A DNA stretch of 64,000 nt from Streptomyces aculeolatus. Its GTDB lineage: Bacteria; Actinomycetota; Actinomycetes; Streptomycetales; Streptomycetaceae. Location of the stretch: NCBI RefSeq assembly GCF_020400605.1, contig NZ_JAINRD010000003.1, positions 124,001-188,000 on the forward strand, written 5' to 3'. Positions within the stretch are counted from its first letter, which is position 1, and each line of letters starts with the position of its first letter. The position numbers and the translations under genes are program-made. Below are positions 24,511 through 50,446 of this stretch, piece after piece. The notes beneath the pieces were generated by a model. It did no database searches. It saw nothing but the letters and a program-made list of their open reading frames with translations, and had not been told where the DNA came from.

Positions 24511-27500
24511 TCACCCGCCCTCCACAGCCTTGTCGATGAGGGCGAGCAGCTCGTCGTCGACGATCGTCGCGTGCTCCGCCTCCCCGGCCGCACCCGCCGC
24601 GTCCGGGCCCGGCTCGGCGGCCCCGCCGGACGCCGCGTCCACGGGGTCCGGCGGGAAGAGTTCCGCGTGCAGCCGGTCCGCCAGCTCGGCGGGGGTGGGG
24701 TGCCGGAACACCACCGTGCTCGGCAGCCGCACGCCCGCCGCGGTGGTGAGCCGGTTGCGCAGCTCCACCGCGGTGAGGGAGTCGAATCCCAGCTCCCGGA
24801 AGGGGCGGTCCGGCACGATCTCGTGGGCGGTGCCGTGCCGCAGGACGGTGGCCGCCTGGGAGCGGACCAGCCCGAGCAGCACGCGCTGCCGCTCCTCGGG
24901 CGACGCGCCGGCCAACTGCCGTGCCAGCGCGCCGTCGTCGGCACCGGGCTCCGCCGCGGTCCCGCCGGCCGCGGCCCGCGGCCTGACCGTGCCGACCAGA
25001 CCGCGGAACAAGGGTGGAAGCCCGCCCGCGGCGGCCTGCCGCCGCAGGCCCGGCAGATCGAGCCGGGCGGCGACCTGGACGGGCTCGCCGGCGGCCAGTG
25101 CCGCGTCGAAGAGCGCCAGCCCGGCGGCGGTGCCGAGCGGCGCCACGCCGGCGCCCGCCAGCCGGTCGAGGTCCCGGCCGGCCAGGTGCCCGGTCATGCC
25201 GCCGGCCTCCCGCCAGAGGCCCCAGGCGAGGGAGACGGCGGGCAGCCCGCGCTGCCTGCGGCGCCGGGCGAGGGCGTCCAGGGTGGCGTTCGCGGCGGCG
25301 TAGTTGGCCTGCCCCGCGGTGCCCAGCAGCCCGGCGACGGAGGAGAACAGCACGAAGGCGTCCAGGTCGAGGCCTTCGGTCAGCTCGTCCAGGTGCTGCG
25401 CGGCCCGCGTCTTCGCCCGCAGCACCTGCGCCACCCGCGCGGCCGTGAGCGCCTCCACGACCCCGTCGTCCAGCGTCCCGGCGGCGTGGACCACCGCGCC
25501 GAGCGGCCGGTCTGCCGGAACGTCCGCGAGCAGGTCGCGCAGCGCCCCGCGGTCGCCGGCGTCGCAGGCCGCCAGGCGTACGTGTGCGCCGAGATCCGTG
25601 AGTTCGGCGGCGAAGTCCGCCGCGCCGTCCGCGGCGGGGCCGCGCCGGCCGGCCAGCAGCAGGTGCCGTATCCCGTGCCGGGTCACCAGGTGGCGGGCGA
25701 GCAGGCGGCCGAGCGTCCCCGTACCGCCGGTGACGAGGACGGTCCGGTCCGGGTCGAGGGGGCGGGGCAGGGTGAGCACGGCCTTGCCGAGGTGGGCGGC
25801 GTTCTTGAGCGTCTCGAACGCGTCCGGCGCCTCACTGACGTCCCACGAGGTGATCGGCGGCGGCGGGAGCGTACCGGCGGCGAAGAGACCGGTGAGGCGG
25901 CGCAGTACGCCGCCGACCCGGCCGGGGTCCTCGGCGAGCAGGTCGAAGGGCCGGTAGACGACGCCGGGGCGCTCCGCGGCCACGGCGCCGGCGTCGCGGA
26001 CGTCGGTCTTGCCCATCTCGACGAACCGGCCGCCGCGGGGCAGCAGGTCGAGCGAGGCGTCGGTGAACTCCCCGGCGAGGGTGTGGAGGACGACGTCCAT
26101 CCCGGCGCCGCCGGTGGCGTCCCGGAACCGTTCCCGGAAGTCCAGGTCGCGGCTGGAGGCGATGTGGTCGTCGTCGAGCCCGAGGCGGCGCAGCAGGTGC
26201 TGCTTGGCCGGCCCGGCGGTGGCGAACACCTCGGCGCCGACGTGCCGGGCGACGTGCAGCGCGGCCAGTCCGAGCCCGCCGGTGGCGGTATGGACGAGGA
26301 CGCGCTCGCCGCGGGCGAGGCCGGCCCCCTCGACCAGCCCCATCCAGGCGGTGAGGTACACCACGGGCACGGCCGCCCCCTGCGCGAAGGTCCAGCCCGC
26401 CGGCATCCGCACCAGGGTGCGGGCGTCGGCCACGGCCACGGGGCCCATGGCGCCCGGGATCAGGCCCAGCACGCGGTCCCCGACGGCCGGTTCCGTCACG
26501 CCGGGCCCGACGGCGGTCACCGTGCCCGCGCCTTCGACGCCCATGTCCGCCTGCCCGGGATACATGCCGAGACCGACCAGGACATCGCGGAAGTTGAGCC
26601 CCGCGGCACCCATCGCGACGCGGACACGCCCCTCGGGCAGGGGCCCGTCCGCCTCCGGGGCGGGCAGCGCCGCGAGGCTGTCGAGCGTGCCCCGGACGGT
26701 GGTGCCGATCCGCCACGACCCGCCGTCCGCCGGGACGGGCAGGCGGGCGGCGGGGATCTCCAGCCGCGGGACGCGGACGTCCCCGGCGACCACGCGGATC
26801 TCCGGCTCCGCCGCCGACGCGAGGGCGTCGGCCGTGGCCCGGTACCCCGGGTCGTCGGTGACGTGCGCGAGTGCGAAGCGGCCGGGGTGCTCGGTACGTG
26901 CCGTGCGCACCAGCCCCGCGACGGCGGCCTGCGCCGGGCCTTCGCCGGTGACGGCGAAAGCGAGCCGGGACGCGGCGAACCGCTCGCCGGCCAGCCACTC
27001 CTGGACGAGCGCCAGCGCCCTCGTGGCTGCGTCCTCCGCGGTGCCCTCGTCGGGAACGGGTGCGACCACGGTGGCCGGCACGGGGTCGGCGAGGGCGGCG
27101 AGCCGGGGTGCGCGCGCGTCCAGGACGCAGGGCGGCGGGGGCGTACCGGGGCCCGCCGCGCCCGCCGGTCCGGCGGCGGCGGACACGGCCGACGGCCCGA
27201 CGGGGCCGGCAGGGGCGGCGGGGCCGGCAGGGGCGGGGGGCCGCCAGCCGATCCGGTACAGCCGCCCCGAGCCGTCCGCCCCGGCGGCGCCGCTGGCGGC
27301 GGTGCCCTCCCGGAGCGTCAGGGAGTCGACGGCGGCCAGCGGGCGGCCGGCGGCGTCGGCCACGTGCAGCGCGAAGGCCCCGTCGGCGTCCCCGTCCGGG
27401 ACGATGCGCACGCGCGCCGCCGTGGCGCCGGTGGCGTACAGCTCCACGCCGCTCCACGCGAACGGCAGCGCCGGCCCGGCGGCCCGCTCGCCGGTCCGGC

Positions 27501-49555: not shown

Positions 49556-50446
49556 CTAGGGGCGGCCGATGCCGGGGTAGAAGTCGTACTCGTCGTGGAC
49601 CGTCACCCGGAAGGACACCGTGGGCTCGGGGTTGACGGTGTGCAGGGCGCGGTGCACCAGGCTGCGGTTGTCCCAGACCAGCAGGTCGCCCTCGTCGAAC
49701 CGCTGCAGGTGGATGGCGGGGTGGGTGAAGGTGCGGTCGGACTGGCCGACGGCCTCGAAGAGGTCCTCCAGCAGCCCGTCGCGCAGCGGCTTGCCCTCGC
49801 CGTCGATCAGCTGGTAGCTGACCGCCTCGCTGATGTAGAGCACCGGCCGCCCGGTGACCGGGTGCGGGAAGACCGTCGGGTGGGCGATCGCCGGGGTCTG
49901 CTCCTCGATCTCCGCGATGATCTCGGATATCGGGCGGTAGACGTCGGTCGGCCGTATCTTGAAGTACCGCCGCACGCTGTTCAGGACGCGGCTGCCCTCG
50001 ATCTCGTCCTTCAGCTTCTGCGGCAGGTGCTCGTACGCCTTCTCCAGGTCGATGAAGAAGGTGCCGCGTTCCCCGCGGGGGATGACCTGGGGGTAGATCA
50101 GGGTCAGGCCGAACGGACGCGGCATGAAGGAGTAGTCGTGGTGCCAGAACTTCCCCGTCTGGGGAACGCCGACCTGCTCCCCCTCCTTCTTCACGTTGGA
50201 GGAGACGAAGATCTCGCTGTGCTCGGGGTGGTGGTACATCGGCTGGTAGTACGTCTCCACCTCGCCGAGGCGCCTGCCCAGCGCCACGAACCCGGCCGGG
50301 TCCAGCCGCTGGTTCTTCAGCACCACGATCTTGTGGGTGTAGACGAGCTGCTTCAGCGACGCGAGGTCCGCGTCCGGTGCGCCGAGGACGTCCATGCCGT
50401 CGACGGCCACACCCATCAGGGACTGTTCCTGCGGAATAGTGATCAC
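49556..50446 (-). CDS. ScoE-like non-heme Fe(II)/2-oxoglutarate-dependent isonitrile-forming oxidase/decarboxylase (TauD family)
   Basis: A 296-aa TauD-fold enzyme. The iron triad is His102-x-Asp104 (FWHHDYSF) and His265 (NRSLVHRALH), with Arg280 for 2-oxoglutarate. Tyr66, Tyr67, Tyr71, Arg127, Lys163 and His269 are also present. Shifted by a constant 30 residues these equal the active-site residues I recall for S. coeruleorubidus ScoE (Tyr96, Tyr97, Tyr101, His132, Asp134, Arg157, Lys193, His295, His299, Arg310). ScoE turns a beta-(carboxymethylamino) acid into a beta-isocyano acid by oxidation and decarboxylation. GTG 50446 has GGGAG nine bases upstream; GTG 50452 is in frame but too close to it. 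First gene of the biosynthetic operon, divergent from a DUF4034-like gene. Plain taurine-type dioxygenase activity is unlikely given the residue match. Confidence 0.9.
   Translation of the reverse strand: MITIPQEQSLMGVAVDGMDVLGAPDADLASLKQLVYTHKIVVLKNQRLDPAGFVALGRRLGEVETYYQPMYHHPEHSEIFVSSNVKKEGEQVGVPQTGKFWHHDYSFMPRPFGLTLIYPQVIPRGERGTFFIDLEKAYEHLPQKLKDEIEGSRVLNSVRRYFKIRPTDVYRPISEIIAEIEEQTPAIAHPTVFPHPVTGRPVLYISEAVSYQLIDGEGKPLRDGLLEDLFEAVGQSDRTFTHPAIHLQRFDEGDLLVWDNRSLVHRALHTVNPEPTVSFRVTVHDEYDFYPGIGRP

Follow-up and report, generated by a model that had tools for sequence, protein, structure and literature searches.

Does a gene run that joins isonitrile lipopeptide-type enzymes to three type I polyketide synthase (PKS) proteins make an isonitrile, and is such an arrangement a lone case? 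The run lies in a 64,000-nucleotide stretch of Streptomyces aculeolatus (the window; bases 124001–188000 of contig NZ_JAINRD010000003.1, in a genome of 9.0 Mb), as close-packed minus-strand genes from a ScoE-family oxidase through PKS-A at window positions 24511–50452, delimited with a codon model trained on long frames and with Pfam. The prediction of an isonitrile for this operon is well founded. Rather than standing alone, its layout is one variant within a wider class. What is conserved is a cassette of six genes, ScoE–FcoT–reducing PKS–ligase–P450–ferredoxin, and not the whole operon; the KSQ-type PKS is a lineage-specific addition to the cassette. All the genes that an earlier sequence-only reading had named were recovered with Pfam and NCBI models, tightly packed on the minus strand and where it had placed them:

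49556–50452, minus: ScoE-family Fe(II)/2-oxoglutarate oxidase-decarboxylase, start at 50446 or 50452 (NF049937, 6dch, active-site positions)
48939–49490, minus: FcoT-family hot-dog thioesterase (PF10862, 183 bits; 5wsy, 151 bits)
42506–48916, minus: PKS-C, KS-AT-DH-ER-KR-ACP (Pfam, motifs, KS clade)
40953–42509, minus: acyl ligase (AMP-binding), ScoC-like (PF00501, 275 bits)
39678–40937, minus: cytochrome P450 (PF00067, 87 bits; heme motif FGYGTHQCFG)
39463–39681, minus: ferredoxin, three-cysteine type (PF13370, 46 bits), the likely partner of the P450
34001–39367, minus: PKS-B, docking-KS-AT(HAFH)-DH-KR-ACP (Pfam, motifs; start by codon model)
24511–33828, minus: PKS-A, KSQ-AT(YASH)-ACP plus KS-AT(YASH)-DH-ER-KR-ACP (VDTGQSSS, Pfam; start by codon model)

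The oxidase scores 457.4 bits on the NCBI ScoE equivalog model NF049937 (cut-off 400) and 96 bits on the taurine dioxygenase model, which rules out an ordinary taurine dioxygenase; similarly, it matches the solved ScoE structure (PDB 6dch) with 402 bits and TauD (1gqw) with 71 bits. The nearest named ScoE is that of S. phytophilus (97%). In the alignment with 6dch, where the ScoE residue number is the window residue number plus 30, the window oxidase keeps 16 of the 16 active-site positions checked, including the 2-His-1-Asp triad, Tyr96/97/101, Lys193 and the mobile Arg157 and His299; 11 of the 16 are invariant over 77 ScoE rows. Six of the checked positions are those we take to be His132, Asp134, Tyr135, Phe137, His295 and Arg310. 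The remaining ten, Tyr96, Tyr97, Tyr101, Arg157, Lys193, Arg195, Asp198, Arg201, Glu209 and His299, are residues discussed in a published account of ScoE (PMC7949033). Within the genus, with the best five or fewer candidates scored per genome, ScoE-family matches lie at 421–536 bits and the next TauD-like protein at 165 bits, so the match of the window oxidase is far beyond chance. The three other TauD-like matches in the genome reach at most 1.6 bits on a profile built from the 77 ScoE rows; the ScoE tree itself carries no TauD row, and locus L018 was also left out of it. Models, structure, active site and profile thus bear out the sequence-only reading in taking this for a ScoE-like oxidase rather than an ordinary taurine dioxygenase, and the enzyme is predicted to convert an N-carboxymethyl β-amino acid to a β-isocyano acid.

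The FcoT protein, the only one found in the genome, is far above the cut-off of 27 bits for PF10862 (183 bits), and its 151-bit match is to PDB 5wsy, which we take to be SAV606. It had been described as FcoT/ScoD-like; the FcoT family is upheld, whereas the score on the NCBI ScoD equivalog NF049938 (178.4 bits) falls below the cut-off of 250. Among nine proteins scored on the ScoD model, six presumed PKS-type FcoTs gave 178–217 bits, two lipopeptide FcoTs 292–293, and P0105, the FcoT of strain MJ635-86F5, 208.8. That strain is presumably the cremimycin producer. The cremimycin pathway includes a ligase that loads the starter. Its FcoT-type enzyme CmiS1, of which SAV606 is a homologue, is described in a review as adding glycine to a PKS-made enoyl thioester and then hydrolysing the thioester (PMC11284099). 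The window FcoT is predicted to put glycine on an enoyl-ACP and to release the product.

How widely the genes travel together was examined by mapping 15 cassette-group loci. Besides the window, the six genes are complete and in the same order in S. radicis, SAJ15, AJS327, S. boncukensis, S. buecherae, S. zagrosensis, NP-1717, G115, G364, G068 and L198 (12 genomes in all); two loci are cut by a contig end (S. phytophilus, and a Catenulispora metagenome-assembled genome with five of the six genes), and one, in MP131-18, is short of three genes. Three of the core genes group alike in trees made by quick searches with SH-aLRT support only. Cassette members stand together in the ScoE tree (12 rows, support 93, including MP131-18 and one unclassified row), in the FcoT tree (13 rows, support 98, including MP131-18; one row, P0003, was labelled a cassette member without its neighbours being seen) and in the tree of PKS-C KS domains (11 rows, support 99, including two named proteins). 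A contig-cut locus outside the mapped set, L020, also falls in the ScoE cassette clade, and L008 was excluded from the KS tree.

The modular PKS-A and PKS-B adjoin the cassette only in the window and in G115, and are missing beside 10 of the 11 other complete cassettes. PKS-C is the sole PKS detected in the 80 kb that surround the cassette in S. radicis, SAJ15 and AJS327, with no further KS found there; a KSQ PKS lies 33–38 kb off in S. buecherae and S. zagrosensis, and the opposite strand carries other KS domains in G364 and NP-1717. G115 keeps the window arrangement at 75–92% identity, including two large regulators that lie beyond PKS-A:

21566–24514, minus: large LuxR-family (LAL) regulator (PF13191 and PF00196; 83% in G115)
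19079–21541, plus: second LAL regulator, facing the first, with a frame open from 18374 (76% in G115)

The view that the layout has no kin is not supported: 11 other genomes have the whole six-gene core, and in 10 of these the modular PKS is absent beside it. The search for the gene order that had been proposed, run here on genome contigs, recovered the full order, KSQ PKS included, in the window and G115 alone, but the core recurs, and a cluster unique to this genome is ruled out by the cassette loci in other genomes. Neither the cassette nor, as a class, the placement of ScoE and FcoT next to a type I PKS is described among the literature matches listed, which covered few subscription papers.

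ScoE loci were counted in two surveys, which are not independent because many places overlap (G041/S. buecherae, G060/S. phytophilus, G083/S. boncukensis, G200/S. ardesiacus). In the first, genome contigs were scanned with 17 aligned ScoE sequences to give 74 named loci, to which three plasmid loci were added. Layout labels, read by hand from tblastn maps and not from annotation, divide these 77 into NRPS (nonribosomal peptide synthetase; 39), six-gene cassette (9), MP131-18 (1), ScoE-P450-FcoT-PKS (5), other PKS (9), PKS lying upstream or on a different strand (5, a divergent group that may be chance neighbours) and unclassified (9). The second survey covered 392 genomes of the genus and found 38 ScoE places over the cut-off in 33 genomes: 21 with an NRPS, eight with the cassette (one contig-cut), five with ScoE-P450-FcoT-reducing PKS, two with another PKS and two unresolved. 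A PKS-linked ScoE is therefore found at 15 of the 38 places in the genus. Outside the actinobacteria, a gammaproteobacterial metagenome-assembled genome (L039) carries ScoE-FcoT-reducing PKS. ScoE-FcoT pairs also lie near modular KS-AT-DH-KR lines, some on the opposite strand, in L031, L032, L037, L024 and L074 (with a ligase in L031 and L024); these are either another PKS layout or chance.

Comparison with the isonitrile lipopeptide clusters of ScoA–E type shows a shared side-by-side set of ScoE, FcoT and ligase, and the window ligase is 53% identical to the ligase that sits between FcoT and NRPS in L005 and L006. Where the lipopeptide clusters have an NRPS and a free ACP, the window has a reducing PKS, P450 and ferredoxin. 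As noted earlier from the sequence, neither an NRPS nor a free ACP is present among the called genes of the window: PP-binding domains occur only within the three PKS proteins, although the gene caller would miss very short genes. The PKS does occupy the position of the lipopeptide NRPS, as seen against L005, L006 and the mapped loci.

Another likeness is to the pathway of the isonitrile amycomicin, whose cluster is described in Amycolatopsis sp. AA4 and also assigned in Micromonospora humidisoli AKA109, the latter with one PKS of the order KS-ATm-DH-ER-KR-ACP (PMC9967187); S. virginiae is likewise reported to carry it (PMC13273461). The likeness, in which the window was compared with the published AKA109 domain set only, consists of an isonitrile-type pathway with a single reducing PKS. 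From the published assignments we take P0243, a reducing PKS of S. virginiae, to be the one that makes amycomicin. It is 53% identical to window PKS-C, and a PKS of locus L196, which stands after ScoE-P450-FcoT, is 96.4% identical to it over 700 residues. Adjacency of ScoE and FcoT to a reducing PKS of amycomicin type is thus known from L196-like loci and not from the amycomicin cluster itself. These L196-type loci differ from the window cassette in having a P450 after ScoE and an extra KS before the ligase, and one of them, L079, has a free ACP as well, which is missing among the called genes of the window.

The three PKS proteins have the domain content that was first read from the sequence, by both Pfam and motifs: a KSQ loading module with module 1, a module 2, and a single fully reducing module. 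In PKS-A, the active site of the first KS reads VDTGQSSS, with glutamine for cysteine, and is a true KSQ; both AT domains read GHSQG and YASH, motifs assigned to methylmalonyl in the published tables and text (PMC4207774 Table 2; PMC6164871), and module 1 has DH, ER and KR. The loading AT and the module-1 AT are near-identical around the active site, and direct repeats of 136–300 nt (68–79%) occur in the PKS-A region (window 24666–34180), which suggests that an AT was duplicated or converted. An Rfam ASpks match (RF01782, 61.4 bits, window 29785–29859, plus strand), antisense to PKS-A, is probably a by-product of conserved PKS sequence. PKS-B has an N-terminal docking domain, a malonyl-type AT (HAFH), DH and KR but no ER; its DH motif, HRVGERTLVP, has Gly and Glu at unusual places of HxxxGxxxxP, and dehydration may be affected. 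Pfam scans found no TE in PKS-A or PKS-B, and PKS-B ends in a short tail past the ACP, in which no C-terminal docking domain was found. The translation starts of both proteins are codon-model estimates: some 237 N-terminal codons of the frame 24511–34539 and some 87 of the frame 34001–39628 are probably not translated, giving likely starts at 33828 for PKS-A and 39367 for PKS-B. From these domains the chain at the end of PKS-B is predicted to be an (E)-4-methylhept-2-enoyl thioester.

PKS-C is a single fully reducing module, in which no docking domain was detected and the AT has the motifs GHSVG and CASH. Of nine PKS-C proteins from the cassette group (eight loci and the window; L008 is left out of this count also), seven have CASH as the AT word and two CAAH, while the sister groups have HAFH in ten and VASH in one. 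CASH is absent from the main text of two papers on AT motifs (PMC6164871, PMC4207774). CASH/CAAH may be the cassette's own AT signature and may denote an unusual extender unit.

Taken together, these enzymes point, with roughly even odds, to an oxidised, probably branched β-isocyano acid of the amycomicin kind and not a lipopeptide. Of the sequence-only inference of an isonitrile polyketide, the ScoE family and the PKS in place of an NRPS are retained, and the framing as a solitary layout is not. The scheme that follows starts from the observed gene content and order, the intact motifs and the like grouping of three core genes; its reactions, their order and the link between PKS-A/B and PKS-C are inferred. 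PKS-A and PKS-B would take a propionate starter, one fully reduced methylmalonyl unit and one malonyl unit left at the enoyl stage, and this short chain would likely prime PKS-C. PKS-C would extend the chain, with the α,β-enoyl thioester staying on its ACP; FcoT would then add glycine across the double bond and hydrolyse the thioester, so that no TE domain would be needed. ScoE would convert the glycine adduct into the isonitrile by oxidation and decarboxylation, the ligase would re-activate the acid (or load the starter), and the P450 and ferredoxin would oxidise the chain. The published description of the ScoE substrate as an untethered acid (PMC7949033) fits such a release by FcoT.

As the sole PKS found in 80 kb of S. 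radicis, SAJ15 and AJS327, PKS-C is the simplest source of the chain, a view favoured by the ten cassettes with no KSQ line next to them. PKS-C relatives without a detectable ER, in the same place after FcoT (L041, L043, L052), also count for PKS-C as the source of the enoyl group. Several observations weigh against this. The ER of PKS-C looks intact, so that an enoyl product would require the last ER step to be skipped; no extender could be assigned to the CASH motif of its AT; and no docking domain was found linking PKS-B to PKS-C. In MP131-18, ScoE, FcoT and the ligase are intact, the P450 and ferredoxin were not found, and PKS-C is decayed, which suggests that PKS-C may be dispensable for the isonitrile step. 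The remnant is an open frame of 497 aa (L016 11478–12971) between the intact FcoT and ligase, in which Pfam detects only a partial DH. A very long modular PKS follows there, the first modules of which are 74–77% identical in KS to PKS-A and PKS-B. In L196 and G168, a PKS-A-related line, KSQ-AT-KS-AT-DH-KR, comes after ScoE-P450-FcoT-PKS-KS-ligase (with a KSQ motif read in L196; the G168 line is 59% similar, its motif not read), and these short lines, ending in DH-KR beside ScoE-FcoT, point to such a line as the enoyl source. The MP131-18, L196 and G168 loci thus favour a KSQ line. Directly upstream of the S. boncukensis cassette (L013 5507–7962) are genes for a KASIII, a free ACP and a second KS, which may be another chain source; they could supply the cassette, belong to ordinary fatty acid synthesis or act as a spare target, given a report that amycomicin inhibits FabH (PMC13273461). 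On balance, PKS-C is slightly more likely to be the chain source than the KSQ line.

The same loci lend themselves to a different order of steps, which we regard as possible but doubtful: the PKS-A/B enoyl chain would pass to FcoT and ScoE, leave as free 3-isocyano-4-methylheptanoic acid and be loaded by the ligase onto PKS-C, in the place of the NRPS. The further part of this route, growth of the reloaded chain on PKS-C followed by P450 tailoring, is just as tentative. Under it would lie a self-contained six-gene isonitrile cassette distributed across actinobacteria. A final PKS-B module with DH and KR, and without ER, TE or C-terminal docking domain, would suit it, as would the similarly ending KSQ lines beside ScoE-FcoT-ligase in L196 and G168, the retention of ScoE, FcoT and ligase in MP131-18 without a working PKS-C, and the 53% identity of the ligase to a lipopeptide ligase. 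However, all but one of the 11 other complete cassettes lack an adjacent KSQ line and would need an enoyl chain from elsewhere, for example from fatty acid synthesis; a KASIII is nearby only in S. boncukensis (the other cassettes were not searched for free ACPs), and the release of the chain from PKS-C is left unexplained. Those ten genomes count in favour of a reading in which PKS-A and PKS-B are a separate or decaying neighbour, the cassette working alone in the window too. The different KS clade of PKS-A/B from PKS-C, and the occurrence of related modules at the opening of the far larger modular PKS of MP131-18, are in line with this; the shared strand, close spacing and open frames, and the conservation of the arrangement with both LAL regulators in G115 (75–92%), are not, and we consider it rather improbable.

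Two further explanations would remove either the polyketide or the isonitrile. ScoE, FcoT and ligase are common to lipopeptide clusters, and a lipopeptide NRPS and ACP might lie elsewhere in the genome; yet the best long genome matches to lipopeptide NRPS are only 36–39% identical, as against 49–97% for the 21 ScoE-adjacent NRPS of the genus, and the window ScoE, FcoT and PKS-C all fall in the cassette group of the trees. This candidate was rejected as unlikely, and is the least credible of those considered. Scarcely more credible is a β-amino acid starter pathway as in cremimycin, with no isonitrile. FcoT there acts on a PKS-made enoyl chain (CmiS1 in PMC11284099), so that the pairing of FcoT with a PKS is shared, and the ScoD-model score of the window FcoT (178 bits) is closer to that of P0105 (208.8) than to that of lipopeptide ScoD (292). 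Against this, the place of the FAD glycine oxidase CmiS2 is taken by a ScoE-family enzyme whose active site is complete, no FAD enzyme is present among the genes called at 24511–50452, and the window has no macrolactam PKS with a TE. A branched β-isocyano acid, oxidised by the P450, remains the preferred product.

Genes flanking the cassette are common mainly to near relatives (six genomes compared). An exception is a gene of 248–272 aa beside the cassette in S. buecherae, S. zagrosensis, G364 and S. boncukensis, in varying positions. SARP-type regulator domains are present in this gene in S. buecherae (L116 18848–19666), G364 (L124 11188–11958) and S. boncukensis (L013 8188–8934), loci that thus have SARP-type regulators where the window has LAL regulators. 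Divergent from ScoE in the window is a 350-aa protein without a Pfam match (50723–51775, plus), which is 87% conserved in S. phytophilus and was not seen in the other cassette loci compared for flanking genes. Right of the operon are an unassigned frame, SDR, ADH, regulators, an FAD enzyme and a transporter; left of it are stress and ion-transport genes. The block at window 1–14384, with a formate-dehydrogenase-like pair, two P-type cation ATPases, a TrkA pair and Usp, Rv2632c-like and Hsp20 proteins, resembles a stress or low-oxygen island. Among the cassette strains is AJS327 (L012); AJS-327 is named as a marinolides producer (PMC10301374).

The variation among loci is itself of use, as those with and without the KSQ line, together with MP131-18, allow the sequence of reactions to be tested. 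Isonitriles are tight metal binders, and antibiotics are known among them. If the interpretation presented here is correct, the 11 kb cassette, small enough to be expressed as a unit, would open a direct way to isonitrile polyketides, and ScoE chemistry would be linked with type I PKS in a substantial fraction of clusters (15 of 38 in the genus).

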